The position numbers and the translations under genes were made by a program. A DNA stretch of 43,575 nucleotides, taken from contig VFYY01000011.1 of assembly GCA_016871375.1 (NCBI GenBank), positions 1-43,575 on the forward strand, read 5' to 3'. Origin of the DNA: Acidimicrobiia bacterium. Lineage in GTDB: Bacteria > Acidobacteriota > Vicinamibacteria > Vicinamibacterales > UBA2999. Shown in pieces: positions 2,872-39,413 of this stretch. The notes under the pieces were generated by a model. The model was not told the origin of the DNA. It saw only the letters and a program-made list of their open reading frames with translations, and searched no databases. The stretch's first letter is position 1, and each line of letters opens with the position of its first letter.

Positions 2872-4670
2872 TGCGGATCCTGTTTTCCACGCGCAACTTC
2901 TGGTACACGAGGCTGTTCGAGCCCGTCATCCGCGAGCTCGCCGAGCGCGGCCACCAGGTGCACGTGCTCGCCGAGCGCGGCGAGCGCAACCTGCTCTCGC
3001 GCGACTGGAACGCCGCCATGGCACGGCTGGCGGGCAGCCACCCCAACATCTCGTTCGACTGGGCGCCGCTGCGCATCGAGAACGACTGGATCGACTTGCG
3101 CCAGATGATCCGGCTGGGCATCGACCACCTGCGGTTCCTCGAGCCGGCGTACGCGGCCGCTCCGAAGCTGGCGGAACGGGCGCGGGTTCGCACGCCGGTG
3201 TGGGTCGTGCGGCTGGCTGACGCGCCCGTGCTGCGCACGCGCGCCGGACGCCGGCTCATCAAGTTCCTGCTCCGCCTGGCCGAGCGTGCCGTCCCCATCG
3301 ACCCGGACCTGGCGGACTACATCGAGGCGCATCGCGCCGATGTGATCCTCGTGACGCCGCTGGTCGTCCTCGGATCCGAGCAGCAGGATGTCGTCCGGAT
3401 CGCTCGCCGCATCGGTACCCCGACCGCGCTGTGCGTGGGCAGCTGGGACCATCTGTCCAGCAAGGCGCTCGTGCGCGATCAGCCGGATCGGATGTTCGTG
3501 TGGAACGAGACGCAGCGGCAGGAGGCCGTGGCGCTGCACCGCGTCCCGGCGGAGCGCGTGATCGTCACCGGCGCCCAGTGCTTCGACATCTGGTTCGGCC
3601 GGACCCCGACGCTCGATCGCGAGGCGTTCTGCCGCAAGGTGGGTCTCGACCCCTCGCGGCCGTTCCTGTTGTGGGTCTGCTCGGCGCTCTTCGAGGGAAG
3701 CCCGAGCGAAGCCGAGTTCGTGGCGCGGTGGATCGGAGAGCTGCGGGCGAGGGGGAACCCGATGCTGCGCGAGGCGGGGATCCTGGTACGGCCTCACCCC
3801 AAGCGCAAGTCCGAGTGGGACACCGTCGATCTCGGCGGCTTCGCGAACGTGGCGCTGTGGCCGCCGCGCGGCGCGGCGCCGATGGATCCGCCGACGCAGT
3901 CCGATTACTTCGATTCGATGTACCACGGCGCGGTGACTGTCGGCCTCAACACCAGCGCGCTCATCGAGGCGGGCATTGTCGGGCGCGCCGTGCACACGAT
4001 TCTGCTGCCCGAGTTCTACGAGAATCAGGAAGGCACGCTGCACTTCCACTACCTGCTGCAGCAGGGACTGCTGCGATCGGCGCGCGACATGGCGTCGCAT
4101 GTCGCGCAGCTCGATGCGTCGCTGGCCGGGGCCGACCCCGGCGTGCATCACAACCGCGCCTTCGTCGAGGGCTTCGTTCGTCCGCGCGGCCTCGACGTCG
4201 CCGCCACCCCCGTGTTTGCGGACTTCGTCGAGTCGATGGCGTCGCTGCCGATCCACCCCCGGCCCGATCCCGCCTGGGTGCCGGCCGTGCGCTGGGCACT
4301 GACGCCGCTGGCGCGCACCACGAGCGGCACCTTCGCCGAGCAGATCAGCCGCGAGCGGCGGCGGCGTGAAAAGCGCCGCCGGACGGACGAACGGCGGGCG
4401 GCGCTCGAGGACGCGCGCGCGGCGCAGAAGGCCCGCGTGGCCGACGAGCGGCGGCTGCGGCGCGAGGCCGAAGTGCGTGAGCGGCAGGAGCGCATCGCGC
4501 GCGAGCGGCAGGAGGCGCTGCTCGCCAAACAGCGGAAGCGCGAGGCGAAGCTGCAGCAGAAAGAGGAGCGGATGGCGCAGTGGCAGCGCGAGAAGCGGCG
4601 CCGCGCGTTCAACGCGCGGCTGGCCGGCTTCTACCGGCGCCTGCTGCGGCCCTTCTCGGCACATCAGTGA
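2871..4670 (+). CDS. GT-B-like glycosyltransferase with charged helical tail
   Basis: 599 residues. The N-terminus (RILFSTRNFWYTRLFEPVI, then ELAERGHQVHVLAERG) is the first beta-alpha unit typical of GT-B glycosyltransferases. Family hallmarks follow: SWDHLSSK at about 191, VWNETQ, VTGAQCFDIWF, RPHP near 307, YFDSMYHGA near 346 and NTSALIEAGIVGR near 360. From about residue 483 the protein changes to a roughly 115-residue tail dominated by Arg, Lys, Glu, Gln and Ala with almost no hydrophobic core. It probably forms a long helix or coiled coil and may serve membrane or partner binding. The ATG overlaps the preceding TGA by one base, so translation is probably coupled. A sugar transferase is inferred from fold-like motifs; the sugar cannot be read from sequence. 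Confidence 0.82.
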   Translation: MRILFSTRNFWYTRLFEPVIRELAERGHQVHVLAERGERNLLSRDWNAAMARLAGSHPNISFDWAPLRIENDWIDLRQMIRLGIDHLRFLEPAYAAAPKLAERARVRTPVWVVRLADAPVLRTRAGRRLIKFLLRLAERAVPIDPDLADYIEAHRADVILVTPLVVLGSEQQDVVRIARRIGTPTALCVGSWDHLSSKALVRDQPDRMFVWNETQRQEAVALHRVPAERVIVTGAQCFDIWFGRTPTLDREAFCRKVGLDPSRPFLLWVCSALFEGSPSEAEFVARWIGELRARGNPMLREAGILVRPHPKRKSEWDTVDLGGFANVALWPPRGAAPMDPPTQSDYFDSMYHGAVTVGLNTSALIEAGIVGRAVHTILLPEFYENQEGTLHFHYLLQQGLLRSARDMASHVAQLDASLAGADPGVHHNRAFVEGFVRPRGLDVAATPVFADFVESMASLPIHPRPDPAWVPAVRWALTPLARTTSGTFAEQISRERRRREKRRRTDERRAALEDARAAQKARVADERRLRREAEVRERQERIARERQEALLAKQRKREAKLQQKEERMAQWQREKRRRAFNARLAGFYRRLLRPFSAHQ

Positions 4671-6334
4671 ACGTTCTCTTCCTCGGGCGCCACTACACCT
4701 ACTTCCGCAACTTCGACTCCGTGATCCGCGAGCTCGCCTCGCGGGGGCACAGGATCCACCTCGTCGTCGAGCGCGGCGACCCGGAAGGGCTCGGCGGGAT
4801 CAAGCTGGTCGAGGCGATCGCCGCGGATCACCCCGCCGTCACCCATGGCGAGGCGCCGGGACGTACCGATGATCGCTGGGCGTGGACGGCGGGGCGGCTG
4901 CGCCTCGGCATCGACTACCTGCGCTACCAGCAGTCGCTGTTCGACCGCTCGCCCAAGCTGCGGGAGCGGTCACGCGAGCGGACGCCCGCGGTGTTTGTCG
5001 CCGCCGCCGCACCGCTGCGCGCGCTCGGCGGGTGGGCGCTCGACGCGTGCGCACGTCTGGTGCGCCGCCTCGAGGCCGCCATTCCGGAGGATCCGGCGGT
5101 TGGCGCGTTCCTCGACGCGCAGCACCCGGACCTGGTGCTGGTGACGCCGCTGCTCAGCCTCGGCTCGTCGCAAATCGACTACCTGCGTGCGGCCCGGGCG
5201 CGTCGCATCCCCACGGCCCTCTGCGTATGGAGCTGGGACCACTTGTCGAGCAAGGCGCTGATCCGCGAGCGGCCGGACCGCGTCTTCGTCTGGAACCAGA
5301 CGCAGAAGCGCGAGGCCGTCGAGCTGCACGCCATGCCCGCCGACCGCGTCGTCGTCACCGGCGCGCAGTGTTTCGACCAATGGTTCGACCGCGCGCCATC
5401 GCGCACGCGCGAGGAGTTCTGCAGGCAGGTCGGACTGCCCGCAGACCGGCCGTTCGTCCTGTACGTGTGCTCGGCGCTGCTCTACGGCAGTCCGCCTGAG
5501 GCGCCGTTCGCCGTGGAATGGATTCGCCGTGTGCGGGCCAGTTCATCCTCGCGCCTGCGCGACGCCGGCATTCTCGTCCGGCCGCATCCGTCCCGGACGG
5601 CGGAGTGGCAGGGCGTCGAGACGCGCGACCTGCAGGCCGTCGTCTGGGGGGGCAATCCGGTCGACACGCAATCGAAGGCGGACTACTACGACTCGCTGTA
5701 TCACGCCGCCGCCGTGGCCGGCATCAACACGAGCGCCTTCATCGAGGCGGCGATCGTCGGCCGCCCGGTTCACGCCCTGGTCCTGCCGGAGACCGAGGAG
5801 AACCAGACGGGCACGGTTCACTTCGAGTACCTGTTACGAGTTGGCGGCGGGTTCGTCGAGGTCGCACACAGCTTCGACGAGCACCTGGCGCAGCTCGACC
5901 GCGCCCTCGCTGCACCTCGCCACGAGGTGAAGCCCTTCGTCCGCGAGTTCGTCCGCCCGCACGGCCTGGACCGGCCGGCCACTCCGCTGTTTGCCGGTGA
6001 GGTCGAAGCGCTCGCCGGACGCGCGTCCGCGCCGCTGCGTCAGGATCGGCTGGCTCCGCTCTGGGCCTGGCTGCTCGAACGGATCGCGCGGCTGCAGGGC
6101 AGTGAACGGGCCGAGCGCTGGGTGTTGTCGCCGCGCGAGTACGAGAGCGCGCAGGGCCTGCGGCACATGCGGGAGGTCAAGGCAATCAGGCGAGCCCAGG
6201 CGCGCGCCGCCAAGGACGCCACGCGACTCGCCGATCTCGAGGCACGCGAGGCGCGGCTCGCCGAACGGCAGCGGCAGCGCGACGAGTGGCGCCGCGCGAA
6301 GCGCGAGGCAGAGGCACGAGGCTCATCGCGATGA
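4667..6334 (+). CDS. GT-B-like glycosyltransferase with charged helical tail
   Basis: 555 residues from a GTG at 4667 that overlaps the previous TGA by 4 bases. This start puts NVLFLGRHYTYFRNFDSVI at the N-terminus exactly as in the paralogues; the longer frame from 4580 only reads through the neighbour's tail. Hallmarks are WSWDHLSSKAL, VWNQTQKREAVELH, VTGAQCFDQWF, VRPHPSR, YYDSLYHAA and INTSAFIEAAIVGRPV. From about residue 498 there is a shorter Arg/Glu/Ala-rich helical tail. It sits mid-way in the tandem array and presumably acts in the same polymer pathway on the cytoplasmic side, since there is no signal peptide or membrane segment. Donor and acceptor are unknown. Confidence 0.82.
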   Translation: MNVLFLGRHYTYFRNFDSVIRELASRGHRIHLVVERGDPEGLGGIKLVEAIAADHPAVTHGEAPGRTDDRWAWTAGRLRLGIDYLRYQQSLFDRSPKLRERSRERTPAVFVAAAAPLRALGGWALDACARLVRRLEAAIPEDPAVGAFLDAQHPDLVLVTPLLSLGSSQIDYLRAARARRIPTALCVWSWDHLSSKALIRERPDRVFVWNQTQKREAVELHAMPADRVVVTGAQCFDQWFDRAPSRTREEFCRQVGLPADRPFVLYVCSALLYGSPPEAPFAVEWIRRVRASSSSRLRDAGILVRPHPSRTAEWQGVETRDLQAVVWGGNPVDTQSKADYYDSLYHAAAVAGINTSAFIEAAIVGRPVHALVLPETEENQTGTVHFEYLLRVGGGFVEVAHSFDEHLAQLDRALAAPRHEVKPFVREFVRPHGLDRPATPLFAGEVEALAGRASAPLRQDRLAPLWAWLLERIARLQGSERAERWVLSPREYESAQGLRHMREVKAIRRAQARAAKDATRLADLEAREARLAERQRQRDEWRRAKREAEARGSSR

Positions 6335-8079
6335 AGCTGCTGTTCATCGCGCGGCATGCCGGCTATTTCCGCAACTACGACTCCGTGCTGCGCGAACTGG
6401 CACGGCGCGGCCACCACGTCCACCTCGCCGTCGAAAAGCAGGATTCGCTCGGTGCCCTCGAGGTCGTCGAGGCGCTGGCCCGCGACTGCCCCGGGATCAG
6501 CTCCGCGATGGTCCCCGAGGAGCGCATCGACATCTGGAGCACCGTCTCGAGGTTCCTGCGTCTCGGCCTCGACTACGTGCGCTACCTGGATCCGTTTTTC
6601 GACACGGCGCCGCTGCGCCGGCTGCGCGCGTACAACCGGACGCCGCGCTGGCTCACGCTGCTGGCCGATCCACCGCTGCTGCGTGGCCCGCGGTGGCGGC
6701 GCGTCGTCGGCCGGTTGCTGCACGGGATTGACACGTCCGTCGCGCCTCCGCCGGCCATGATCGAGTTCCTCCAACGGGAGCAGCCCGACGCCGTCCTGAT
6801 CACGCCGTTCGTGGATCTCGGTTCGCTGCAGGTCGATTACCTCCGCGCCGCGCGCATGCTCGGCATTCCGTGCGGGCTGCCGATCTGGAGCTGGGACCAT
6901 CTGACGACCAAGGCGCTGATCCGCGATCGGCCCGATCGCGTGTTCGTCTGGAACGACATCCAGCGGCGCGAGGCCGTGGACATCCACGGCATTCCCGCCG
7001 ATCGCGTGGTCGTGACCGGGGCGCAGTGCTTCGACCACTGGTTTGCGCGCCGGCCGTCGCGCAGCCGGGAGGCCTTCTGCGCCAGCCTCCGGCTGCCGGC
7101 GGACCGGCCCCTGCTGCTGTATGTCTGCTCGGCCGTCATCGAGGGCAGCGCGCCCGAGCACGAGTTCGTGCCGGAGTGGCTGGAGTGGGTGCGTTCGAGC
7201 CCGGATCCGCGCGTCGCCGGCGCCGCGGTGCTCATTCGGCCGTACCCGACGAAATTGACGGTGTGGCACGACGTCGATCTCAGCGCGTACGGGCCGGTGG
7301 CGGTCTGGGGCGGCAACCCATTCGACGAACAGGCGCGCAGCGACTATTTTGACTCGCTCTTCCACAGCGCGGCCGTCGTCGGGCTCAATACCAGCGCGTT
7401 CCTCGAGGCGGGCATCGTCGGCCGCGACGTGCTCGCCATCCTGGTGCCGCGCTACCACGACAGCCAGGAAGGATCGCCGCACTTCAACTACCTGATGAAG
7501 ATCGGCGGCGGCCTGCTGCAGGTCGCGAGGGACCGCGAGGGTCATCTGGGACAGATTGGTGCGGCGGTTCGACGTCCGTTGGCCGGGCCGCATCCGTACC
7601 GCGCGTTCGTCGAGACATTCATCCGGCCCGGCGGGTTCGACACCGACGCGACCACCGCGCTGGCTCAGGGGATCGAAGATCTCGCTGCATGCACCGTCAC
7701 CGTCGACGCCGCGAGCCCGGCGGCGGTTCGGCGGCGCGCCGCGCTGGAACGGATCGTATGGATGTCGTCGCGACTGTTCTCGCCCGCGGCGAGCGAGTGG
7801 TCCCGCAAGGTCGGCGGGATGGAGCGGAAACGGCGCTTCAAGGAAGGGAAGGAGCGCGCCACCGAAGCGCGCCGGGCCGAGCGTCTTCGCGCCCACCAGG
7901 CGCGCCGTGCCGAGAAGGAGCAGGCGCGTGAACGCCGCACGCGCGAAAAACAGCAGCTACGCGAGGCTCGCCTGCATGAACAGGAGCGGCGTCAGCGCGC
8001 GGAACGGCAACGGGCCGCGCGCAGGCGCCGCACCGAGTTGAAACAGTTGATCAAGAAGAAGCTGGGGCTGGCGTCCTGA
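6331..8079 (+). CDS. GT-B-like glycosyltransferase with charged helical tail
   Basis: 582 residues; the ATG at 6331 overlaps the preceding TGA (ATGA). It begins KLLFIARHAGYFRNYDSVL and carries WSWDHLTTKAL, VWNDIQRREAVDIHG, VTGAQCFDHWF, YFDSLFHSA and LNTSAFLEAGIVGR. The usual RPHP is RPYP here, a change at a normally fixed histidine that may matter for activity. From about residue 490 there is a tail of some 90 residues, almost wholly Arg/Glu/Ala/Gln and ending in a lysine-rich KKKLGLAS. It is the last gene of the first plus-strand array, and its 3' end overlaps the convergent methyltransferase by 29 bases. Confidence 0.82.
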   Translation: MKLLFIARHAGYFRNYDSVLRELARRGHHVHLAVEKQDSLGALEVVEALARDCPGISSAMVPEERIDIWSTVSRFLRLGLDYVRYLDPFFDTAPLRRLRAYNRTPRWLTLLADPPLLRGPRWRRVVGRLLHGIDTSVAPPPAMIEFLQREQPDAVLITPFVDLGSLQVDYLRAARMLGIPCGLPIWSWDHLTTKALIRDRPDRVFVWNDIQRREAVDIHGIPADRVVVTGAQCFDHWFARRPSRSREAFCASLRLPADRPLLLYVCSAVIEGSAPEHEFVPEWLEWVRSSPDPRVAGAAVLIRPYPTKLTVWHDVDLSAYGPVAVWGGNPFDEQARSDYFDSLFHSAAVVGLNTSAFLEAGIVGRDVLAILVPRYHDSQEGSPHFNYLMKIGGGLLQVARDREGHLGQIGAAVRRPLAGPHPYRAFVETFIRPGGFDTDATTALAQGIEDLAACTVTVDAASPAAVRRRAALERIVWMSSRLFSPAASEWSRKVGGMERKRRFKEGKERATEARRAERLRAHQARRAEKEQARERRTREKQQLREARLHEQERRQRAERQRAARRRRTELKQLIKKKLGLAS

Positions 8080-9752: not shown

Positions 9753-9767
9753 CGGGAGGATCTGCTC

Positions 9768-11195: not shown

Positions 11196-11218
11196 TGGTT
11201 CGAGTGGAACAGTGTAGC

Positions 11219-22792: not shown

Positions 22793-24504
22793 AAGTCCTG
22801 TTTTCAGCGCTGCACTTCGGCTACTTCCGCAACTTCGAGTCGGTGATCCACGCGCTCGTCGAGCGCGGGCATCACGTGCACCTGGCGGCTGACGAACCCG
22901 ACATCGCCGGCGGGCAGGGGCTGGTGGAACGGCTCGCCGCCACGCACCGGTCGGTCACCTTCGGCTGGACGCCGGGTATCGAACGCGAGCCGTGGTGTGC
23001 GGCCGCGCAGAAGCTCCGCTACGCGCTCGATTACGTGCGGTTCCTCGACGCGCGCTATGCCGATGCGCCGAAGCTGCGGCTGCGGAGCATCGAGCGGACG
23101 CCACGGATCGTCCGCTGGCTGACGACGCCGCTGGCGGGCATCAGCCCGGGACGGCGTCCTGTCGAAGCGGGCTTGAAGTGGGCCGAGCGGATGATGCCGC
23201 GCAGCGCGGCCATGGAACGCTGGCTGGAGGACGAGGCGCCGGATGTGCTCCTGCTCGCCTCGCTGACGTATCCGCGATCGACGAACATCGAGCAGCTGAA
23301 GATCGCGCGCTCGTTCGGCGTGCCCGTGGCGGCGTGCATCATGAGCTGGGACCATCTGTCGAGCAAGGCCCTGCTGCACATCGCGCCGGACGCCACGATC
23401 GTCTGGAACGACGTGCAGCGCCGCGAGGCCATCGACCTCCACGGCCTGCCGGCCGACAGCGTCGCCGTCACCGGCGCCCAGTGCTACGACCAGTGGTTCT
23501 CGCGCCGGCCGGATCGTTCGCGCGAGGAGTTCTGCCGTGCCGTCGGCCTGCCGGCGGATCGGCCGTTCGTCCTCTACGTCTGCTCGGCGATGAGTCCGTC
23601 GCCGGAGCCGCCGGAACCAGCGTTCGTCAAGCGGTGGGTCGAGGCGGTTCGCTCGTGTCCCGACCCCGTCCTGCGCAATGCCGGACTCCTGATCCGGCCG
23701 CATCCGGAGCGGCTGAAGGAGTGGCGCGGCATCGAGCTGCACGGCCTGGAGCACGTGGTCATCGCCGGGCGCAATCCGATTGACGATGACGCGAAAGCTG
23801 ACTACTTCGACGCGCTGTTCTACTCCGCGGCCGTCGCCGGCGTGTGCACGAGCGCCTTCATCGAAGCGGCCATCATTGGCCGGCCGATCCTGACGCCGCT
23901 GCTGCCGGAGTTCGCCATCCACCAGAACGGCATGGCGCACTTCCGGTACCTGCGCGACGTCGAAGGCGGCGTGCTGCGGATGGCGTCGTCGCTCGACGAG
24001 CATCTGTCGCAGCTGGCCACCGCGCTGGCCGAGCCGCCCGGGCGTGACGAGCGGAATCGCCGGTTCCTGACCGCGTTCGTCAGGCCCGCCGGCCTGGATC
24101 GTCCCGCCACGCCCCTGTTCGTCGACGAGGTCGAGCGGCTGGCGCTGTCGGATCCGCGGGCTCCCGAGACCGCGAGGGAGTCCTCACCTGCCGCTCGCAC
24201 ATTCGTCGAGCGGCTCGCCGTCTCCGCCACGACGGGCGTCGGCCGCTGGCTCCTGATGGACGCGATCGACGACGCGCGCGCCCGCAGCGAGCGGCAGAGC
24301 GACGAGCGCCGGCGCGCGATCGAGCAGCAGCGTGCGGACTACCGCGCCGCGAAGCGGCGCAAGCGCGACGCGATGGTGCAGGCCACCGAAGACGAGCGGC
24401 GCGCCAAGCACAGGCGGAAATGGCGCCGCGGCCTCAACCCGCGCAAGCAGGTGGCGCGCCTCAAGGGCGGCGTCAAGCAGCTGATCGGAGCGCGGCATCA
24501 GTGA
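22789..24504 (+). CDS. GT-B-like glycosyltransferase with charged helical tail
   Basis: 571 residues; the ATG at 22789 overlaps the neuA stop. It is a member of the family expanded at 1-8079: KVLFSALHFGYFRNFESVI, MSWDHLSSKAL, VWNDVQRREAIDLHG, VTGAQCYDQWF, IRPHPERL, YFDALFYSA. The usual NTSAFIEA block is CTSAFIEAAIIGRP here. A basic helical tail runs from about residue 494. Being directly coupled to a CMP-sugar synthetase makes a CMP-nonulosonate donor an attractive but untested idea for at least this copy. Confidence 0.82.
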   Translation: MKVLFSALHFGYFRNFESVIHALVERGHHVHLAADEPDIAGGQGLVERLAATHRSVTFGWTPGIEREPWCAAAQKLRYALDYVRFLDARYADAPKLRLRSIERTPRIVRWLTTPLAGISPGRRPVEAGLKWAERMMPRSAAMERWLEDEAPDVLLLASLTYPRSTNIEQLKIARSFGVPVAACIMSWDHLSSKALLHIAPDATIVWNDVQRREAIDLHGLPADSVAVTGAQCYDQWFSRRPDRSREEFCRAVGLPADRPFVLYVCSAMSPSPEPPEPAFVKRWVEAVRSCPDPVLRNAGLLIRPHPERLKEWRGIELHGLEHVVIAGRNPIDDDAKADYFDALFYSAAVAGVCTSAFIEAAIIGRPILTPLLPEFAIHQNGMAHFRYLRDVEGGVLRMASSLDEHLSQLATALAEPPGRDERNRRFLTAFVRPAGLDRPATPLFVDEVERLALSDPRAPETARESSPAARTFVERLAVSATTGVGRWLLMDAIDDARARSERQSDERRRAIEQQRADYRAAKRRKRDAMVQATEDERRAKHRRKWRRGLNPRKQVARLKGGVKQLIGARHQ

Positions 24505-25640
24505 ATCCGCGCGTGGTGCTCGGGATGACGCTCTACAACAACGCCCGTCATCTGGCGGAGGCCGCCGACTCGCTGCTGGCGCAGAGCAATGGCGATTTCG
24601 CGCTGTTGATGCTGGACGATGCGTCCAGCGACGGAACCGCGGAGCTCGCACGTGAGTACGAACGCCGCGATGCGCGCGTGCGCTACCGGCGGCACGAACA
24701 GCGCCAGGGCATGGTCCCGACATGGCGCGGCGTCGCCGAATGGGCGCGCCAGGAGTATCCACGCGCCGAGTTCTTCGCCTGGGTCAGCGATCACGATCGC
24801 TGGCACCCTGAGTGGCTGCAGCACCTCGTCGTCGCGCTCGACGCCCACCCCGACGTCGTCCTGGCGTATCCCCTCTCACCGCGCATCGACGACGACGGCA
24901 GTCCCGGTCCCAAGGCGCCGCGCATGTTCGACACGCTTGGCGTGACTGACGGGGCCGCGCGCTGGTCGCGGTTTTGTCACGAGGGCGTGGGCGCGGGTGA
25001 CATGGTGTACGGCGTGATCCGGATGCCGGCGCTGACGGCGGCGGGCACGTTCCGCCCCGTGCTGCGTCCGGATCGATTGCTGATCGCCGAGCTGACGCTG
25101 CAGGGACAGATTCATCAGGTGCAGCGCCCGCTCTGGTTCCGCCGCCACTCGAGCGTCAGCAGCGTCGCGCGCCAGAGCGTCACGCTCTTTGCGGGCGCGC
25201 CGCCGCGCTGGTTCCTGCTGCCGGCATGGCTGCAGCACGCGGCCGTGGTCGTGCGCCGCTACGGCACCGGCGCGGCGCCCGTCCGCATTCCGGCAGCGCA
25301 GCTGGCGCGGATGCTCGTCCTCTACAGCACGACGTATGCGTGGCGGCACGTCAAGAAGTCCGAGACCGCGCACAGCATCGGACGCGGGGTCGACAACGCG
25401 CACTGGGTCAAGAAGGTCATCAAGAAGGGGTTTCACGTCTCCGTCTACTGGACGCTGGTGACGGGCCGGCGCGTGTGGGGCCGCACCCGGCGTGCGTACC
25501 GGCGCGCCGTCTACGAGACGCTGATGACGATGCACGCGCTGCGGGGGCGCGCGCGGCGCCTCGTCCGCGGCGGCGTTCGCGATCTGCTGATCCTGTCGCA
25601 CCGGCTCGGGCTGCGCGGGGGAGGGGGCGGCGAGCGGTGA
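24501..25640 (+). CDS. Family 2 glycosyltransferase
   Basis: 379 residues from a GTG at 24501 overlapping the previous stop by 4 bases; the earlier in-frame start at 24420 lies inside the neighbour's tail. VVLGMTLYNNARHLAEAADSL and LMLDDASSDGT are GT-A family 2 signatures, and SDHDRW supplies the acidic metal-binding motif. The last ~150 residues are basic with several long helices (for example WVKKVIKKGF), reminiscent of the tails of the GT-B-like neighbours. It is probably a cytoplasmic sugar transferase acting on the same glycan; donor and acceptor are unknown. Confidence 0.85.
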   Translation: MNPRVVLGMTLYNNARHLAEAADSLLAQSNGDFALLMLDDASSDGTAELAREYERRDARVRYRRHEQRQGMVPTWRGVAEWARQEYPRAEFFAWVSDHDRWHPEWLQHLVVALDAHPDVVLAYPLSPRIDDDGSPGPKAPRMFDTLGVTDGAARWSRFCHEGVGAGDMVYGVIRMPALTAAGTFRPVLRPDRLLIAELTLQGQIHQVQRPLWFRRHSSVSSVARQSVTLFAGAPPRWFLLPAWLQHAAVVVRRYGTGAAPVRIPAAQLARMLVLYSTTYAWRHVKKSETAHSIGRGVDNAHWVKKVIKKGFHVSVYWTLVTGRRVWGRTRRAYRRAVYETLMTMHALRGRARRLVRGGVRDLLILSHRLGLRGGGGGER

Positions 25641-27193
25641 GGGTGCTGTTCGCGGCGCTGCACGGCGGCTACTTCCGCAATCTCGAGTCCGTGATCGAGG
25701 AGCTCGCGCGCCGCGGGCACCAGGTGCACCTCGTGTCGGAGCGCGTCGAGTCGGCGGCCGGTGGCGGCGGCATCGTGGAGCGTCTCGCGGCAAGCTCGCC
25801 GAACGTGACCTTCGGCCCGGTTCCCCAGCGCGAACCCGACCAGATCACGTTCCTCGCCTCCAAGATCCGGCTCGGCCTGGCGTACCTGCGCTATCTCGAG
25901 CCGCCCTACAACGAGACACCCGCGCTGGTCCGCCGCGCCGAAGAGCGGACGTCTCTGGCGGTGGTGCGCGCCACGCGGTCGGCGATGTTCGCGACGGGGA
26001 AGGCGCGCCGGCGCCTGGCGCGCCTGCTCGACGCGCTGGATCACGCGCTGCCACGCAGCCGGGCCATCGAGCGGTTTCTCGACGAGCAGCGGCCCGACGT
26101 CGTCCTGGTGACGCCGCTCGTGGGCGTCGTCGCCTCGTCGCAGCTGGACCTGGTGCGCAGCGCCGCGGCGCGGCGCCTGCCGACCGGCGTCTGCGTGTGG
26201 AGCTGGGACCATCTCTCGAGCAAGGCGATCATCCGCGACGCACCGGACCGGCTGTTCGTGTGGAACGAGACGCAGAAGGACGAGGCGGTTGCGATGCAGG
26301 GCCTGCCGCCCGAGCGCGTCGTCGTCACGGGCGCGCAGTGTTTCGACCGCTGGTTCGCCCAGCAGCCGGCGCGCGAGCGCGCGGCGTTCTGTCGCCGCGT
26401 CGGTCTGCCCGACGATCGGCCGTTCGTGCTCTGGGTGTGCTCGGCGCTCTTTCCGGGCAGCCCGTCGGAGGCGGAGTTCGTCAGGCGATGGATCGCGCAG
26501 CTGCGCGCGTCCGCTGACGCTGCCGTGCGCGAGGCGGCCATCCTGATCCGCCCGCACCCGTCCCGGACGGCCGAATGGGACGCCGTCGACTGGCGGACCG
26601 CTCCGAACGTCGCGCTCTACGGCGGCAATCCCATCGATGCCGAGTCCCGGGCCGACTACTTCGACTCGCTGCATCACAGTGCGGCGGTCGTCGGCCTGAA
26701 CACGAGCGCGTTCATCGAGGCCGGCATTGTCGGCCGCCCGGTGCTGGCCGTCCTGCCGGAGGAATTCCACGCCAACCAGGAAGGCACGCTGCATTTCCAC
26801 TATCTGACCGACGGCGGTCTGTTGACCACGGCGCGCACGCTGCCCGAGCACGAGCGCCAGCTGGCCGGCGTGCTGGCGGGGCATTCGCGCGAGATGCTCG
26901 ATCGGCAGCGCGGCTTCATTCAGGCGTTTGTCCGTCCGCAGGGACTGCAGCAGGCCGCGACGCCGGTGATGGCCGACGCCATCGAGCAGCTGCCGCGCGT
27001 CGCCGCCACGCACGTCCGCGGCCGCCGGCGATCGCTGGCGGCGTCCGCCGCGCTGCGCGTGCTGCTGGTGCTGCAGCAGACGCCTGGCGTGAAGCACCTG
27101 TTCCTGGACGAGCGCGAGGTGCGCCGCGAGGCCGCGCTGCGGGAGAACCGCCGGCGGCGCCGTGCCGAGGAGCTGGCGAGGCGGGCGTCGTGA
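25637..27193 (+). CDS. GT-B-like glycosyltransferase
   Basis: 518 residues from a GTG at 25637 (overlap GTGA), giving RVLFAALHGGYFRNLESVI at the N-terminus; the longer frame from 25226 is a shadow of the family 2 gene. Hallmarks: VWSWDHLSSKAI, VWNETQKDEAVAMQG, VTGAQCFDRWF, IRPHPSR, YFDSLHHSA, LNTSAFIEAGIVGRPV and QEGTLHFHYL. Only about 30 residues of the charged tail remain (EREVRREAALRENRRRR), the shortest among the single-module copies. It lies between a family 2 transferase and the fused gene. Confidence 0.82.
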   Translation: MRVLFAALHGGYFRNLESVIEELARRGHQVHLVSERVESAAGGGGIVERLAASSPNVTFGPVPQREPDQITFLASKIRLGLAYLRYLEPPYNETPALVRRAEERTSLAVVRATRSAMFATGKARRRLARLLDALDHALPRSRAIERFLDEQRPDVVLVTPLVGVVASSQLDLVRSAAARRLPTGVCVWSWDHLSSKAIIRDAPDRLFVWNETQKDEAVAMQGLPPERVVVTGAQCFDRWFAQQPARERAAFCRRVGLPDDRPFVLWVCSALFPGSPSEAEFVRRWIAQLRASADAAVREAAILIRPHPSRTAEWDAVDWRTAPNVALYGGNPIDAESRADYFDSLHHSAAVVGLNTSAFIEAGIVGRPVLAVLPEEFHANQEGTLHFHYLTDGGLLTTARTLPEHERQLAGVLAGHSREMLDRQRGFIQAFVRPQGLQQAATPVMADAIEQLPRVAATHVRGRRRSLAASAALRVLLVLQQTPGVKHLFLDEREVRREAALRENRRRRRAEELARRAS

Positions 27194-29874
27194 AGATTCT
27201 CTTCTTCGCGCGGCACTACTCGTACCTGCGGCTGTTCGAGTCGGCGATTGCCGGGCTCGCGGAGCGCGGGCACCAGGTGCACCTGGCCGCGCATCGGGAA
27301 GAGCGCATGGGCGGCCGGCGCATGGTCGAGGCGCTGGCGGCGCGATACCCAGGCCTCGTCACCCTCGGGAGCGCGCCCGCGCGCCCTGGCGGCCCGTGGG
27401 CCGAGCTGGCGCGGCGGCTGCGCCTGGGCCTCGACTACCTGCGCTACCTGGATCCGCGCTACGCCCGCGCGCCACACCTGTTCAACCGCTCGAAGGAGCG
27501 GGCGCCGCGCATCGTCATCGGGTTGTCGAACCTGCCAGGACTGCGCTCGCCGGCGGGCCGCAGGATGCTGTTGTCCGTGCTGCGGGCGCTCGAGCGCGGT
27601 CTGCCGATGAGCGCCGAGATCACCGAGTACATCCGCGCGCAGCAGCCCGATCTGGTCATGATCACGCCGCTCGTCGATCTCGGCTCGCCGCAGCTCGATC
27701 ACCTGGCCGCGGCGAAGGCGCTCGGGCTGCGCACGGTGCTGCCCGTCGCGAGCTGGGATCATCTCTCCAGCAAGGCGCTCCTGCGCAGCATGCCGGACCG
27801 CGTCATCGTCTGGAACGACGTGCAGAAGGACGAAGCGGTCGGGATGCACGGCGTGCCGAGCGAACGCGTGGCGGTCACCGGCGCCCATCCGTTCGATCTC
27901 TGGTTCGTCCGCCGGCCGGCGCGCAGCCGCGAGGAGTTCTGCGCGCGCGTCGGGCTCCGTCCGGATCGGCCGTTCGTGTTGTATCTCTGCTCGTCGCTGT
28001 TCCGCGGGACCGCCGACGAGGCCGCCTTCGTCGAGCAGTGGGTCGAGGCGCTGCGCGGCAGCGACGATCCCCGCCTCGCGGACATCGGCATCCTCATCCG
28101 GCCGCATCCCGCGCGCCGCGACGAATGGACGAACGTCGACCTGTCCGGGTACCGCAACCTCGCGTTCTGGGGCGCCCATCCGATCGACGACGAGGCGAAG
28201 GACGACTACTTCGACTCGATGTACTACAGCGCGGCGGTGGTCGGCCTGAACACGAGCGCGTTCATCGACGCGGCCGTGGTCGGCAAGCCGGCGCACACGA
28301 TCCTGCTGAACGACATCTCGAAGCACAATCAGGAAGGCACGATTCACTTCCACTACCTGCTCGACCTGAACGGCGGCCTGCTCCGCGCCGCGCGCAGCTT
28401 CGGCGAGCACCTGACGATGCTCGCGGATTCGCTGGCGGCAGAGGGCGGCGGAGACGAACGGGCCGCGCGCTTCGTCGAGGGTTTCATCCGCCCGTTCGGC
28501 CGCGACGCGGCGGCCACGCCGCGGTTCGTGAGCGCGATCGAGGACGCCGGACGCCTGCCCTCGCCGGCGCCGGTCGGCGGCGGCGTGGCCGAGCAGGCAC
28601 TGCGATTGCTGCTGTATCCGCTGGTGGGCGCGCTCTACGCCCTGCTGGCCACGCAGCCCTGGCGCAAGCGGACGCGGCTCGCCCTCAAGAAGGTGTGGCA
28701 GGACGGCCATCGGCGCACGTTCGTGCTGCTGAAGCAGTTCGCGCAGTCGCAGCTGGGGGAAAAGGAAGTGGCGCCGGGACCGCCCGCCGTGTCGTCGGCG
28801 TTGACGCCGAAACCCGGACGGCCGCGCGATCCGGCCAAGAAGCTCGCCGGCTGGAACCTGCCCGAGGCGCTCGAGGCCCGCGAGCTCGTGACCGTCCTCG
28901 GCCGCAGCGGCAAGCCGATTCTGCTCGGGCCGTGGCTGTCCGAGACCGGCTTCGAGCTGATGTACTGGATTCCGTTCCTCGCCTGGGCGCGCACCTACGG
29001 CAACCTCGACCCCTCGCAGATCGTCGTGGTCTCGCGGGGAGGCGCGGCATCCTGGTATCGCCACATCACGCCGAACTACGAGGACATTCTCAGCTTCTAC
29101 ACGCCCGACGAGTTCCGGCGCCGCAACGAGGCGCGCATCGTCGAGCAGAAGGGGCGGCTGAAGCACGTCGACGTCGGCAGCTTCGACCGCGAGATCATCG
29201 CGAAGGTCAGCGAGCGTCGCGGACTGCGCGGCGTGAAGGTGCTGCACCCGTCGGTGATGTACCGCCTGTTCGACCCGTTCTGGTTCCAGCGCTCGCCGAT
29301 TACGCTCGTCGAGACCTTCACCGCGTTCAGCGCGATGCCGCCCGCGCCGCTCGGCGCGCTGCGCGATCAGCTCCCGGAGCGTTACGTGGCGGCGAAGTTC
29401 TACGGCAACACGGCGCTGCCCGACACGCCAGAGAACCGCGCGTTCACGAGCGCCTATCTGCAGCAGCTCACCGAGCACACCGACGTCGTGCTGCTGAACA
29501 CCGGGCATCAGTTCGACGACCACGAAGACCTGCCGGCGGCGGCGCGCCGTCGCCTCCACACCGTGGAGCACCTGATGACACCGGAGACGAACCTCGACGT
29601 CCAGACGCGCATCATCAGCGGCGCCGAGGCGTTTGTCGGCACCTACGGCGGATTCTCGTACCTCGCGCCGCTCTGCGGCACGGACACGCTCGCGTTCTAC
29701 TCGCACGCAACCGGGTTCCGCTTCGATCACCTGGAGCTCGCCAAGCGCGTCTTCTCCGGCCTGCGCAAGGGCGCGTTCGTCGAGCTCGACGTCCGCGCCG
29801 TCGATCTGCTGCAGCTGGGGTTCGGCGGCCAGGCGGCATCCGCGGCGGCGCTGACGGGGGCGGTGAAACCATGA
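27190..29874 (+). CDS. Fusion of GT-B-like glycosyltransferase and GPW-family domain
   Basis: 894 residues from a GTG at 27190 (overlap GTGA). Residues 1 to about 480 are a complete copy of the expanded module: KILFFARHYSYLRLFESAI, ASWDHLSSKAL, VWNDVQKDEAVGMHG, VTGAHPFDLWF, IRPHPARR, YFDSMYYSA, LNTSAFIDAAVVGKP. A basic, proline-containing linker follows. From about 575 comes a second domain starting LLGPWLSETGFELMYWIPF, with VVSRGGAASWYR, VLHPSVMYRLFDPFW, VAAKFYG, NTGHQFDDHEDL and FVGTYGGFSYLAP. That domain exists as separate proteins at 33709, 34748 and 38184. The fusion implies that the two activities work on the same or consecutive linkages. Neither specificity is known. Confidence 0.82.
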   Translation: MKILFFARHYSYLRLFESAIAGLAERGHQVHLAAHREERMGGRRMVEALAARYPGLVTLGSAPARPGGPWAELARRLRLGLDYLRYLDPRYARAPHLFNRSKERAPRIVIGLSNLPGLRSPAGRRMLLSVLRALERGLPMSAEITEYIRAQQPDLVMITPLVDLGSPQLDHLAAAKALGLRTVLPVASWDHLSSKALLRSMPDRVIVWNDVQKDEAVGMHGVPSERVAVTGAHPFDLWFVRRPARSREEFCARVGLRPDRPFVLYLCSSLFRGTADEAAFVEQWVEALRGSDDPRLADIGILIRPHPARRDEWTNVDLSGYRNLAFWGAHPIDDEAKDDYFDSMYYSAAVVGLNTSAFIDAAVVGKPAHTILLNDISKHNQEGTIHFHYLLDLNGGLLRAARSFGEHLTMLADSLAAEGGGDERAARFVEGFIRPFGRDAAATPRFVSAIEDAGRLPSPAPVGGGVAEQALRLLLYPLVGALYALLATQPWRKRTRLALKKVWQDGHRRTFVLLKQFAQSQLGEKEVAPGPPAVSSALTPKPGRPRDPAKKLAGWNLPEALEARELVTVLGRSGKPILLGPWLSETGFELMYWIPFLAWARTYGNLDPSQIVVVSRGGAASWYRHITPNYEDILSFYTPDEFRRRNEARIVEQKGRLKHVDVGSFDREIIAKVSERRGLRGVKVLHPSVMYRLFDPFWFQRSPITLVETFTAFSAMPPAPLGALRDQLPERYVAAKFYGNTALPDTPENRAFTSAYLQQLTEHTDVVLLNTGHQFDDHEDLPAAARRRLHTVEHLMTPETNLDVQTRIISGAEAFVGTYGGFSYLAPLCGTDTLAFYSHATGFRFDHLELAKRVFSGLRKGAFVELDVRAVDLLQLGFGGQAASAAALTGAVKP

Positions 29875-33708: not shown

Positions 33709-34755
33709 GTGGGCGTACGGGCGCTGCTGCGCCGTACGCTGCCGCGCTGGGTGCGCGTGCAGGCCAGCGCCGCGTTCGCGCACGCCGACAGCGCGCGGCT
33801 CGACAAGGAGCTCGCCGCGATGGCGGCGAGCGGCCACACGATCGTCGCCGGCCCCTGGCTGGGCGAAGTCGGGTTCGAGCTCCTCTACTGGGTTCCGTTC
33901 CTGGCGTGGGTGGCGGATCGAGCTTCGCTGCCGCCGGAGCGGCTGCTCGTCATCTCGCGCGGGGGCACCGCCGGCTGGTATGCGCCATTCGCCGGCCGCT
34001 ACGCGGACGTCTTCGAGCACGTCTCGCCCGATGCGTTCCGGGCCGCGCACGACGCGCGGGTCGCAGAGATCGGCGAGCAGAAACAGACGCGCGTCACCGA
34101 CTTCGAGCGCGGCCTCGTGGAGACGCTGGCGGGGCGCGCCGGCGTCGGGCGCTGGACGCTGCTGCACCCGTCGCGCATGTACCAGTCGTTCAACCCGTAC
34201 TGGTGGGGGCATCTCCCGCCCGGATGGGTGCACCGCCATGCGATCTACCGGCCGCTCGCGGGCGCGCGAACGGATGCGCTCAGGCTCCCGCCGTCGTATG
34301 TCGCCGCGAAGTTCTACTTCAACGACTGCTTTCCGCCGACCGAGGCGAACAGGGCGTTCACGCGCGAGGCGCTGGCGCGGCTCGCGCGCAGCGGGCCGGT
34401 GGTGGCGCTCTCGACCGGCTTGAACATCGACGATCACCACGGCGAGCGTGTGGACGAAGACGGCGTACGCCACTTGCCCGAGGGAATCGACCCGGCGCGC
34501 AACCTCGCCGTGCAGAGCGCCGTCGTCGCGGGCGCGCGCGCATTCGTCGGCACCTATGGCGGCTTCTCGTATCTGGCGCCGTTCCACCTCGTGCCGGCGT
34601 ACGCGTTCTACAGCGACCCGGCCGGCTTCTCGCCCAGGCACCTGGCCATGGCGCGGTCGGCGTTCGAGCGGATTGGCGCGGCCGGCCTGCTTCGCCTGCA
34701 TGCGGTGACGGAAGGGGCAGCGGTCGTGGACGGCATTGGAGCGGCTCGTGACTGA
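33709..34755 (+). CDS. GPW-family protein, putative glycosyltransferase (stand-alone)
   Basis: 348 residues from a GTG directly after the neuA stop. The family signature starts at residue 48 (GPWLGEVGFELLYWVPF), followed by VISRGGTAGWY, LHPSRMYQSFNPYWW, VAAKFYF, STGLNIDDHHGE, NLAVQSAVV and FVGTYGGFSYLAP. The last block is the same as in the fused copy at 27190, so these two form one subgroup. There are no membrane segments. I do not recognise a named family; the alternating beta/alpha pattern and the glycine-rich C-terminal block suggest a GT-B-like transferase. Location after neuA makes a nonulosonate-transfer role possible. Confidence 0.72.
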   Translation: MGVRALLRRTLPRWVRVQASAAFAHADSARLDKELAAMAASGHTIVAGPWLGEVGFELLYWVPFLAWVADRASLPPERLLVISRGGTAGWYAPFAGRYADVFEHVSPDAFRAAHDARVAEIGEQKQTRVTDFERGLVETLAGRAGVGRWTLLHPSRMYQSFNPYWWGHLPPGWVHRHAIYRPLAGARTDALRLPPSYVAAKFYFNDCFPPTEANRAFTREALARLARSGPVVALSTGLNIDDHHGERVDEDGVRHLPEGIDPARNLAVQSAVVAGARAFVGTYGGFSYLAPFHLVPAYAFYSDPAGFSPRHLAMARSAFERIGAAGLLRLHAVTEGAAVVDGIGAARD

Positions 34756-35944
34756 TCCGTGGGCGGCCATCGACACGCGGGCGCGCGAGGTCAAGCGGGC
34801 GGCGTTCGCGGAGTCCCGCCGCGGCTGGAAGATGGCCCGGGAGCGTGCCTTCAATGCGCTGACCGCGGCCTGGAATCTGAGCGCCCGGCAGCTCCGGCGC
34901 GTTCGATCGGCGCCGGCGCGCGCGCAGCACGAGCTGCGGCGCCTCGACGACACGCGGCGGCGGTTCGAGACGTATCGCGCCGAGTGGGCAGTCGAGCGGG
35001 AGCTGGCGCGGCTGGTGCGCGGCACCGATCCGATCATCGTTGGACCGTGGCTGTCTGAAGTCGGCTACGAAGTCCTGTACTGGGTTCCCTTCGTCAGGTG
35101 GATCAAGTCGACCTACCACGTGAAGTCCGACCGGCTGCTCGTGGTCACGCGCGGAGGCGCGTCGGCGTGGTATCGCGACATCACGCCGCACGCGGTGGAG
35201 CTGTTCGACCTGGTGTCGCCGGAGCAGTTCGTGCAGCGCAACACCCAGCGCGCGGCAGAGGGCGGCGGGACGGTGAAGCAGCGGGGCCAGACGCCGATGG
35301 ACGAAGAGATCGTCGGCGAGGTGATGCGGCGCGAAGGGCTGCGCTCGGCGCGGGTGCTGCACCCGTCGTTCCTCTACCGCCTGTTCCAGCAGTTCTGGCT
35401 CGGGCATCGCGCGCCGTCGTTTCTGGAGCGCCGCACGAAGTACCGGCTGACTGAGCCGCCCGCCGTCGCGCTGCCCGCGCTGCCGCGCGACTACGTCGCC
35501 GTGAAGTTCTACACCGCGGCGTCGCTCCCGCCGACCGTGCCGCACCGTCGGCTCCTGCAGTCGATCGTCCTGCGGCTGGCGGCCACCGGCGACGTGGTCA
35601 TGCTGGATACCGGCCTGACGCTCGACGACCACGAGGACTACACCTTCGACGCGGCCTCGCGGATCCACAGCCTGCGCGGCGCGCTGCGGGCCGAAGACAA
35701 TCTGGCAGTGCAGACGGCGGTCATCGCGCGGGCGCGGTCGTTTGTCGGCACGTGCGGCAGCCTGGCGTGGCTGGCGCCACTGCTCGGCGTCGAGACCACC
35801 GCCGTCTTCGCCGACCCGCAGTTCCTGCACGGCCACCTGCAGGTGGCGCGGCGCGTCTATCAGGTCTGCGGGGCGGCGCGGTTCACGCCGTTCGACATTT
35901 CCGCGCTCGACCCGCTCGGCATCGAGGTACACACCACATCATGA
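34748..35944 (+). CDS. GPW-family protein, putative glycosyltransferase
   Basis: 398 residues from a GTG at 34748, overlapping the previous gene by 8 bases; a TTG at 34736 is an alternative. Residues 1 to about 90 are basic and helical, unlike the gene before. The signature starts at 99 (GPWLSEVGYEVLYWVPF), then VVTRGGASAWYRD, VLHPSFLYRLFQQFW, VAVKFYTA, DTGLTLDDHEDY, NLAVQTAVI and FVGTCGSLAWLAP. The final block places it with the gene at 38184 in a second subgroup. The function is inferred to be sugar transfer. It is coupled by ATGA to the epimerase. Confidence 0.72.
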   Translation: MTDPWAAIDTRAREVKRAAFAESRRGWKMARERAFNALTAAWNLSARQLRRVRSAPARAQHELRRLDDTRRRFETYRAEWAVERELARLVRGTDPIIVGPWLSEVGYEVLYWVPFVRWIKSTYHVKSDRLLVVTRGGASAWYRDITPHAVELFDLVSPEQFVQRNTQRAAEGGGTVKQRGQTPMDEEIVGEVMRREGLRSARVLHPSFLYRLFQQFWLGHRAPSFLERRTKYRLTEPPAVALPALPRDYVAVKFYTAASLPPTVPHRRLLQSIVLRLAATGDVVMLDTGLTLDDHEDYTFDAASRIHSLRGALRAEDNLAVQTAVIARARSFVGTCGSLAWLAPLLGVETTAVFADPQFLHGHLQVARRVYQVCGAARFTPFDISALDPLGIEVHTTS

Positions 35945-37528: not shown

Positions 37529-38187
37529 CCATCACCGAGTTCGAGCGACAGGTCCTGCGCCAGACGGCGGTCGGCGCCGGGCACTACGATGCCGACTACT
37601 TCGCCGGCGAGTGGCGCGCCGAGGGCAACAAGTACGACCTGGAGACGCGCCGCCAGATCGAGGCGCGCAACCCGGCGCTCATCAAGGAGGTCTTCCAGCC
37701 GCGGCGCGTGCTCGACCTGGGGTGCGGCCCGGGGGCGCTCATGCACCTGCTGTGGGAGCTCGGTGTCGACGTCGACGGCATCGACTTCGCCGAGAGCAGC
37801 CGCCACCTCGCCACCCCCGAGGTGCGCGGCCGCATCACCATCGGACAGGTGACGGACTCGACGCTCAAGCCGGCGAACGCCTACGACCTGGTGATCTGCC
37901 GCGAGGTGCTGGAGCACCTGACCGTGCTGCAGGTGAAGCAGGCGGTCGCCAACATGGTCCGCATGACGTCGACGTTCGTCTACGTGACCACGCGCTTTCA
38001 TCCGAACCCGTCGACGCTGCTCGACTTCAACCAGAAGGACGACCTGGATCCGTCGCACATCACGCTCCTGAACAAGGACATGCTCCGGCTCATGTTCGTG
38101 CTGGAAGGGTGTCGGTCGCGCCCGGACCTCGAGTCGCGCATGGACTGGGGCGGCAAGGGCCGCGTGCTCGTGCTCGAGAAGGTGTGA
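37525..38187 (+). CDS. Class I SAM methyltransferase
   Basis: 220 residues from an ATG overlapping the previous TGA (ATGA); the longer frame from 37216 is a shadow. Motif I is VLDLGCGPG (62-70), GIDFAESS is the acidic loop, and CREVLEHL lies at motif IV. No zinc ribbon and no membrane segment are present. It is probably a small-molecule or sugar methyltransferase acting with the epimerase and nucleotidyltransferase directly before it; the acceptor is unknown. It is followed, with a 4-base overlap, by the fourth GPW-family member. Confidence 0.86.
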   Translation: MTITEFERQVLRQTAVGAGHYDADYFAGEWRAEGNKYDLETRRQIEARNPALIKEVFQPRRVLDLGCGPGALMHLLWELGVDVDGIDFAESSRHLATPEVRGRITIGQVTDSTLKPANAYDLVICREVLEHLTVLQVKQAVANMVRMTSTFVYVTTRFHPNPSTLLDFNQKDDLDPSHITLLNKDMLRLMFVLEGCRSRPDLESRMDWGGKGRVLVLEKV

Positions 38188-39413
38188 GGATCGCCAACCT
38201 CCCGTTCGTCGCCGTCAACGTCGGGTCGCTCCTCCGCAACCGGCTGGCGAAGCTGTATCGCCACTATGCCGGCCGCACGCGGCGCGCGGCGAAGCTGTCG
38301 GCGGAGCACGCGAAGAACGCGCGCAGCGGACTCCGGCAGGCGGCCGACCGGCGCCGTGACGACCTCGAGCACGCGCGCGCCGCGGCTGTCCACTCGGCGC
38401 GCTACTGGCAGCGCGTGCGCGAGCAGCTGATCGAGCCCCTCCGCCAGGACACGTCGATCAGGCGCGAGCTGCGGCGGGTCGCCGCCGGCGAGGGGCCGAT
38501 CCTCGTCGGCCCCTGGCTGTCCGAAGTCGGCTACGAGGTGCTCTACTGGGTGCCGTTCGTCCGCTGGTTCGTGCATCAGTACCGCGTCGACCCGCGGCGG
38601 CTGGTGGCCGTGTCGCGCGGCGGCGCCGGCGCATGGTACGCGGACGTCGCCGGGCGCTCCATCGAGCTGCTCGATCTGTTCGCGCCCGACGAGTTCGCGC
38701 GCCGCAACGCCGATCGGCAGGCGTCCGGCGATCAGAAGCAGCTGGCCGCTGTCGATTTCGACGCGGAGATCGTGCGCCGCATAGGGGCACGGCACGGCAT
38801 CGCGGATGCCACGCTGCTGCATCCCTCGCTCATGTTCCGGTTGCTGCGGCGGTTCTGGCTCGGGACCGCGACGCTCGAGTACGCCCTGCAGCAGCTGCGG
38901 TATGCGCCCGTCGGCCCGCGTGCGGACGTCACGCTGCCGGACCTGCCGCCGCAGTTCACGGCCGTGAAGTTCTATACAGGCACGGCGATCCAGGACACGC
39001 CGGAGCATCGCCGGCTGCTGCGGGCGATCGTCGAGCGCCTGGCGGACCGGGGCCCGGTCGTCACGCTCGGCGCGGGCGTACAGCTCGACGAGCATGAGGA
39101 CTTCCTGTTCGGCGGGCTGCCCAACGTGAGGGGTCTCGGCGACGGCGTCACGCCGCAGAGCAACCTGGCAGTGCAGACCGAGGTGATCCGGCGGTCATCG
39201 CTGTACGTCGGGACGGCCGGCAGCCTCGCCTGGCTGGCCCCGATGCTCGGGGTCGATACGGTCGCGGCGTATGCCGATGATCGCTACCTGGGCCCCCACC
39301 TGTATGCCGCCCGGTATGCCTACGCCTCGATCCCGGCTGGCCGGTTCATGCCGCTCGACCTGCAGGCGGCGGCGCGGTTCGAGCGTGCCGGGGTTTTCGC
39401 AAACGTAAGGTAA
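38184..39413 (+). CDS. GPW-family protein, putative glycosyltransferase
   Basis: 409 residues from a GTG at 38184 (GTGTGA junction, 4-base overlap). Residues 1-100 are basic and helical (RTRRAAKLSAEHAKNAR), similar in character to the tails of the GT-B-like family. The signature begins at 109 (GPWLSEVGYEVLYWVPF), followed by AVSRGGAGAWYAD, LLHPSLMFRLLRRFW, TAVKFYTG, GAGVQLDEHEDF, NLAVQTEVI and YVGTAGSLAWLAP. It is closest in its blocks to the gene at 34748. It is the last gene of the 16-gene run before a short gap. Sugar transfer is inferred, not proven. Confidence 0.72.
   Translation: MRIANLPFVAVNVGSLLRNRLAKLYRHYAGRTRRAAKLSAEHAKNARSGLRQAADRRRDDLEHARAAAVHSARYWQRVREQLIEPLRQDTSIRRELRRVAAGEGPILVGPWLSEVGYEVLYWVPFVRWFVHQYRVDPRRLVAVSRGGAGAWYADVAGRSIELLDLFAPDEFARRNADRQASGDQKQLAAVDFDAEIVRRIGARHGIADATLLHPSLMFRLLRRFWLGTATLEYALQQLRYAPVGPRADVTLPDLPPQFTAVKFYTGTAIQDTPEHRRLLRAIVERLADRGPVVTLGAGVQLDEHEDFLFGGLPNVRGLGDGVTPQSNLAVQTEVIRRSSLYVGTAGSLAWLAPMLGVDTVAAYADDRYLGPHLYAARYAYASIPAGRFMPLDLQAAARFERAGVFANVR

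Follow-up and report, generated by a model that had tools for sequence, protein, structure and literature searches.

Four glycosyltransferase (GT) genes on one contig of a Vicinamibacteria genome end in long charged C-terminal tails. These tails are genuine, in-frame parts of the proteins and are maintained by selection. The window analyzed here is that entire contig (VFYY01000011.1; 43,575 bases, from a 4.2 Mb assembly of 295 contigs), which encodes a paralogous GT family comprising P0001, P0002, P0003, P0004, P0005, GT6, and GT7, with the tails on P0002–P0005. Our preferred explanation, held tentatively and with slightly less than even confidence, is that these tails are orthologue-specific, mostly single alpha-helical tethers of the GT array whose tips form membrane or docking contacts; every step beyond sequence and structure prediction is one that we infer. 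The charged arm would act as a stiff tether of up to ~15 nm that sets the reach of the catalytic head from an anchor at the inner-membrane surface or on a partner module; the tip would provide the membrane or docking contact, and many enzymes could thereby act on one long lipid-linked glycan, probably containing nonulosonic acid.

Composition of the charged tails

Each tail runs from a proximal segment into an arm rich in Arg, Glu, Lys, Gln, and Ala (43–80 residues, no proline) and, in three of the four proteins, ends in a basic tip. A first-pass annotation made from the sequence alone had described tails of 55–120 residues, composed almost only of these five amino acids, on the copies at 2871, 4667, 6331, and 22789. 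Open reading frames (ORFs) and tails are indeed found there, the lengths were roughly right (105–142 residues past the GT domain), and the composition fits the charged cores—80 residues in P0002, 46 in P0003, 64 in P0004, and 43 in P0005—of which 82, 80, 86, and 72%, respectively, are Arg, Lys, Glu, Gln, or Ala. All four cores are net positive, with Arg plus Lys outnumbering Glu plus Asp by 31:17, 15:9, 25:12, and 15:9. The best 36-residue window for the five residues reached 86, 78, 89, and 75% in the same order, compared with a maximum of 69% (median 50%) in 143 GT bodies. Among 878 other six-frame ORFs of at least 200 residues in the loci, many of them spurious, 14 reached 75% and three reached 80%, two of these three being split copies of the same GT family; the P0005 tail (75%) is thus unexceptional by this measure alone.

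G+C content by codon position in the tails resembled that of the coding body (third positions 0.79–0.93 in tails, 0.88–0.91 in bodies), and the stop codon overlaps the start of the next gene in three of the four tailed GT genes. A repeat origin of the tails was rejected, Tandem Repeats Finder having found nothing in 2871–8079. No PDB entry matched the arm at E 0.01 (phmmer), and a search of the genome for loci resembling the P0002 arm returned only itself at E 0.01, low-complexity sequence being hard to search. A GT2 enzyme at 24501–25640, in the same gene run, also appears by eye to end in a long basic tail.

Conservation and spread among relatives

The comparison used 40 fetched stretches, of which 37 came from relatives and three from other contigs of this genome; they contain 150 ORFs with GT matches, and 143 domains were placed in a tree. 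Among 139 domains with complete C-terminal ends (22 genomes), 43 precede a charged stretch, 37 of them with at most 200 residues after the GT domain and six with more. The earlier remark that fused and short copies carry only traces of a tail holds within the window, where the GT6 core is short and neither P0001 nor the fusion of a GT with a GPW-family domain has a charged core, but not in the relatives, where a charged linker follows six of the 45 domains with more than 200 residues after them. The charged-stretch state changes 13 times on the tree, a number given without a shuffled control. Tail length lies near that of the closest relative (mean difference 12.4 residues, compared with 41.6 ± 3.6 after shuffling; 94 tails), a likeness also expected from shared descent alone, and tail type and length in the relatives track the orthologue group.

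Whole-tail identity between P0002, P0003, or P0005 and their orthologues was 0.37–0.55, compared with 0.26–0.34 for shuffled tails; that of GT6 was near the shuffle level (0.35–0.43 vs 0.32–0.37). In 26 orthologue pairs that we picked from eight groups, mean identity was 0.70 in the GT domain, 0.48 in the proximal segment, 0.45 in the arm, and 0.54 in the tip, and residue classes of the arm agreed better than within-arm shuffles in all 26 (z 2.3 to 10.6). Fourfold-degenerate third bases in 19 of these pairs were at chance in the tail (0.409 vs 0.386; 716 sites) and barely above chance in the GT body (0.459 vs 0.406; 3609 sites), while residue identity in the same tails was 0.38–0.66. Because silent sites have been randomized while tail residues have been kept, we conclude that the tails are under purifying selection.

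The same comparison bears on the possibility that the tails are neutral low-complexity extensions, that is, functionless GC-rich coding drift past the last domain. Such drift would sit well with the faster evolution of the arm relative to the GT domain and with the loss of the arm in two orthologues of P0004, but it would not be expected to exclude proline, to keep lengths, register, and tips, or to leave no tandem repeats, and since the tails retain their residues despite chance-level agreement at silent sites, we lowered our estimate and now regard it as very improbable. Nor are these the disordered, unconserved tails that the first-pass annotation had named as the contrary outcome: a helix is predicted, orthologues share the tails, and selection is purifying.

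The alignment of the P0005 group shows steps in tail length of 11 and 33 residues, and relatives with tails 33 and 11 residues longer were seen at L075:9158-10969, L078:1606-3405, L076:10222-11967, and L066:7226-8968. Within the fetched stretches, genomes G012 and G027 retain the gene order P0001-P0002-P0003-P0005-GT6-GT7, and G014 retains it minus P0002; P0004 is in none of these three sets of stretches. The P0002 orthologue of G027 (L066, ~13442-15084) is split over two frames, by either a frame break or an assembly error.

More broadly, the GT family was detected at E 1e-30 in 25 of 149 genomes drawn from the class, as four family groups within one order. By eye, the C-terminus of stand-alone GTs in the outer group f8 consists of a hydrophobic and then a basic stretch, the single f5 copy combines a hydrophobic stretch with a basic end that is partly acidic, and in group f4 (G135) two tails, of 67 and 100 residues, are charged. 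Charged tails therefore extend beyond the family group of the window. Judging from these few genomes, a hydrophobic-plus-basic tail may predate the charged tail.

Predicted helix, charge pattern, and tips

AlphaFold2 drew residues 489–591 of P0002 as a single helix, with a predicted local distance difference test score (pLDDT) of 86–97 over residues 511–580; at 1.5 Å per residue, this predicted arm would be ~15 nm long. For pooled statistics, we took the 28 of 140 stop-ended domains with a charged core of at least 35 residues (1522 residues in total). These cores contain no proline (0/1522), 1.4% glycine, and ~10% large hydrophobic residues, and pairs running from Glu to Arg or Lys are enriched relative to shuffles at i+3 (z 2.8) and i+4 (z 2.7) in the 28 related cores. 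By its sequence pattern, then, the spacing of opposite charges is that of a single alpha-helix (SAH), and the P0002 arm is, as modeled, a long, proline-free charged helix.

The first-pass annotation had proposed coiled-coil arms as one possibility, for which the arm set lacks a heptad a/d seam: over the 28 cores, hydrophobic residues showed a 3.5-residue period at z 1.1 (and a 3.67-residue period at z 2.2), and in none of the four window arms did the best a/d register beat shuffles (p 0.07–0.61). We rejected the coiled coil as the principal reading, and coiled-coil docking of stand-alone arms is not supported. The arm of P0003 taken alone leans the other way (3.5-residue period, z 3.0), though among its five orthologues one has z 1.5 and four are at or below 0.6. 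What remains of the earlier interpretation is that the tails are helical by prediction, shared, and selected.

At the C-terminus, amphipathicity over the last 30 residues exceeds that of shuffles in the pool of 38 related charged tails (z 4.6, the tails being non-independent), with p at or below 0.06 in 10 of 38 tails; among window copies, p was 0.01 for P0002, 0.08 for P0005, 0.40 for P0004, and 0.44 for P0003. Membrane contact is therefore plausible, on this pattern, for the tip of some copies only, and the membrane-surface anchor suggested earlier could apply to the basic amphipathic tips of those tails but not to the whole set. In one relative (L057:608-2359), the basic tip pattern KQLARxKGxxKxxI apparently occurs twice at the C-terminus by eye.

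Basic arms and tips might instead grip a polyanion, binding the nascent anionic glycan or a lipid pyrophosphate and so limiting or guiding chain growth in the manner of the PglH ruler helix. The excess of Arg and Lys over Glu and Asp in the four window cores would suit such a grip, as would the nearby NeuC, NeuB, and NeuA genes, which predict an acidic sugar donor; relevant parts of the accounts of PglH and KpsC (discussed below) describe a ruler helix that binds lipid pyrophosphate and a C-terminal helix that alters product length. The arm is probably far longer than a few phosphate contacts require, however, and its ~20% acidic residues would be expected to weaken polyanion binding, and we consider this explanation quite unlikely.

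Several observations weigh against stiff single-helix tethers. In the P0002 model, pLDDT is 55 at residues 491–500, 75 at 581–590, and 49 in the last block including the tip, and AlphaFold2 is known to render charged sequence of low complexity as long helices with high confidence. Opposite charges are enriched at i+1 as well (z 3.1), which is not helix-specific, pairs from Arg or Lys to Glu are not enriched at i+4 (z -0.3), the i+4 signal is insignificant in individual window arms (z -0.1 to 1.8), and like charges recur at i+7 (z -4.0 for net opposite charge in the pooled set), all pooled z values being overstated by the kinship of the tails. Given the i+1 and i+7 enrichments, charged coils would also be compatible with the charge pattern taken alone. 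Amphipathicity of the proximal segment is weak (mean z 0.46; p at or below 0.06 in 4 of 38), and the P0003 group has no clear basic tip. Both P0004 orthologues found have no arm (tails of 63 and 60 residues), so that the arm is dispensable there, and their tail identities (0.30 and 0.31) are at the shuffle level (0.29). Finally, arm lengths are non-monotonic along the gene order, which speaks against a simple progressive ruler along that order, a reading that we rejected. A more specific form of the tether explanation—parallel single-helix rulers, in which at least four syntenic GTs would each be held at an enzyme-specific distance by inherited arm length, with GT-arm-methyltransferase fusions as terminators—we judge to be unlikely.

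Fusions, GPW proteins, and docking

Fusions of a GT with an FkbM methyltransferase (PF05050) were found in L061, L093, and L084 (E 1.5e-16 to 4.5e-13). The linkers of the first two qualify as charged, and that of L084 is rich in Ala, Arg, and Lys, with fewer acidic residues. A charged helix between two catalytic modules favors a spacer or tether, of the sort known from WbdD, over a subunit-pairing coil; even so, good a/d registers were obtained for the linkers of L061:12655 (p 0.00) and L093:13659 (p 0.01), which may, from their sequences, be coiled coils. GPW was rejected as the C-terminal domain of charged-linker fusions, as its profile does not list them; in a Pfam scan of five, covering all but L061:6964 and L084:9615, three C-terminal domains matched FkbM methyltransferase and two matched nothing. 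Side observations include L086:8590 and L093:11128, laid out like the GT-FkbM fusions with a C-terminal domain lacking a Pfam match, and L073:5085-7232 and L072:6983-9226 on other contigs of this genome, where by eye a GT is followed by a methyltransferase of FkbM-type appearance.

The N-terminal helices of two GPW proteins had been likened to the GT arms, a likeness that did not hold. They contain ~23% large hydrophobic residues, compared with 5–12% in GT arms, and the helix of the protein at 38184 has a hydrophobic stripe every 3.6 residues (z 3.8), which by sequence suits an amphipathic helix and not a charged rod; GPW and GT arms are different kinds. The long helix is predicted for the 38184 protein only, and the best PDB match of its model is a GT9 enzyme (template modeling score, TM, 0.39–0.45). 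The GPW family has no Pfam or NCBIfam match at E 0.1 and six matches in this genome, one with an internal stop. Besides the two GPW proteins in Table 1, the window has a member at 33709-34755; the predicted fold is GT-B-like.

These data bear on whether the charged helices are docking arms that pair mutually or with GPW N-terminal helices and so assemble one complex. GT-GPW fusions, present in 18 of the 22 genomes within their fetched stretches, speak for docking, and so do the N-terminal extensions on stand-alone GPW proteins, the kept gene order, and position-specific conservation of the arm beyond the needs of a pure spacer. The period of the P0003 arm points the same way, and the recurrence of like charges at i+7 and the registers of the two fusion linkers led us to rate docking slightly higher. 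We nonetheless think it somewhat unlikely: the arm set has no hydrophobic heptad seam, the P0003 period fades among its orthologues, GPW arms are of another kind, and the four net-positive window cores would repel one another. Only the gene order and the fusions hint at assembly of the transferases into one machine.

Family assignment and neighboring genes

The predicted P0002 structure has two Rossmann-like domains in a GT-B / UDP-GlcNAc 2-epimerase fold. It is nearest to NeuC-type UDP-GlcNAc 2-epimerases (5zlr: Z 22.2, root-mean-square deviation 4.3, 341 residues aligned), with MurG (1nlm: Z 19.7, deviation 3.5, 323 aligned) and other GTs ranking behind. Window GTs had only sub-threshold matches in Pfam and, to BFO_1060 and others, in NCBIfam, and P0002–P0005 showed no second domain in either. 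The best named family for the GT domain was NF046086 (BFO_1060 family glycosyltransferase; E 5.9e-20 to 6.2e-4), but membership was rejected, all seven GT proteins scanned scoring 19–72 bits against a curated cut-off of 200. The family profile had no credible PDB match (three matches, E 0.096 or worse), and the PMC literature gave nothing linking BFO_1060 with glycosyltransferase. Neither this large GT family nor the GPW family is named in Pfam or NCBIfam.

Near the GTs, Pfam identified one NeuC-like epimerase, one NeuB, and two cytidylyltransferases (NeuA), genes that make a nonulosonic-acid glycan likely; the PMC literature gave nothing on a nonulosonic acid gene cluster in Acidobacteria. 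One further gene each of the NeuC-like and NeuB-like types was recognized by eye only, and the pathway is apparently partly doubled. Some 13–14 kb of other genes (8051-22096) separate P0004 from P0005, including a methyltransferase, a radical SAM protein with a B12-binding domain, a GT2, and hydrophobic proteins; in the relative L075, GT genes lie close together at the corresponding place.

Table 1. Features of the window and GT-FkbM fusions of relatives
Feature	Position	Strand	Description and basis
P0001	31..2871	+	Two GT copies fused, truncated by contig start; second copy with 108-residue hydrophobic/basic, non-charged tail
P0002	2871..4670	+	GT-B glycosyltransferase (predicted fold); longest tail, 142 residues past GT domain
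P0002 proximal helix	4278..4322	+	Residues 470-484; structure prediction
P0002 arm	4335..4643	+	Predicted helix, residues 489-591; composition
P0002 tip	4602..4667	+	Basic, amphipathic; final 22 residues
P0003	4667..6334	+	GT; tail 105 residues
P0003 charged core	6179..6316	+	Composition
P0004	6331..8079	+	GT; tail 127 residues
P0004 charged core	7846..8037	+	Composition
P0005	22789..24504	+	GT; tail 116 residues
P0005 charged core	24283..24411	+	Composition
P0005 basic tip	24436..24501	+	ARxKGGxKxLxG pattern, present in orthologues
GT6	25637..27193	+	Same GT family; tail 65 residues, charged core 20 residues
GT7	27190..29874	+	GT-GPW fusion via hydrophobic/basic linker
GPW protein	34748..35944	+	N-terminal extension, putatively helical by likeness only
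GPW protein	38184..39413	+	Predicted 92-residue helix (residues 10-101), then GT-B-like domain
NeuC-like, NeuA-like, NeuB-like genes	20942-22792, 29871-33708, 40373-41449		Pfam, part by eye
GT-FkbM fusions (relatives)	L061:12655-15153, L093:13659-16472, L084:12119-15142		Pfam

Comparison with known systems

These tails bear on the question of how membrane-peripheral GTs are spatially organized along a single growing glycan: in a paralogue array whose arms differ in heritable length, and which includes methyltransferase and GPW fusions, nature provides a series for varying reach and reading the resulting glycan.

SAH domains are charged, proline-free helices, classically charge-balanced and located between domains, whereas the arms here are basic and mostly C-terminal. 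As the relevant part of one account describes, they serve as semi-flexible linkers in prokaryotic and eukaryotic proteins (PMC5378345). The passages retrieved from PMC contain no account of such GT tails as a charged single alpha-helix.

One close likeness is to WbdD, the chain terminator of Escherichia coli O9a and Klebsiella pneumoniae O3, described in the pertinent sections as a catalytic head on a ~200 Å helical rod with a membrane-associated amphipathic C-terminal helix, and to the coiled-coil terminators of K. pneumoniae O4 and O7, with methyltransferase and GT modules sharing one coiled-coil protein in O7 (PMC11231755, PMC5082667). Shared with WbdD, O4, and O7 is a catalytic head on a long helical arm, as predicted here, and the basic amphipathic tip of some tails may correspond to the C-terminal membrane helix. 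In those sections, however, the kinase-methyltransferase WbdD has a three-stranded coiled coil for its rod, whereas here several paralogous GTs of a single array carry the arms, which as a set have no heptad seam; no WbdD-type terminating kinase or methyltransferase is found on P0002–P0005, FkbM occurring only in the fusions of L061, L093, and L084. In the CMP-Kdo capsule transferase KpsC, GT modules are followed by a basic linker and then by an amphipathic helix at the C-terminus; removing that helix changes product lengths, but the linker is a low-confidence stretch of 13 residues, and the sections concerned describe no long charged helix (PMC10148158). The ruler helix of PglH from Campylobacter jejuni is amphipathic, with basic side chains that serve membrane attachment and glycan counting; it differs in binding substrate pyrophosphate and in not being a long C-terminal charged arm, as the corresponding passages have it (PMC5792488). 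Together, these portions of the literature on WbdD, O4/O7, KpsC, and PglH indicate that helices on bacterial enzymes of this sort act as rulers, as membrane anchors, and as scaffolds. Helical tethers or rulers on GTs are thus already known, and the array of putative single-helix arms is a variant of this kind.

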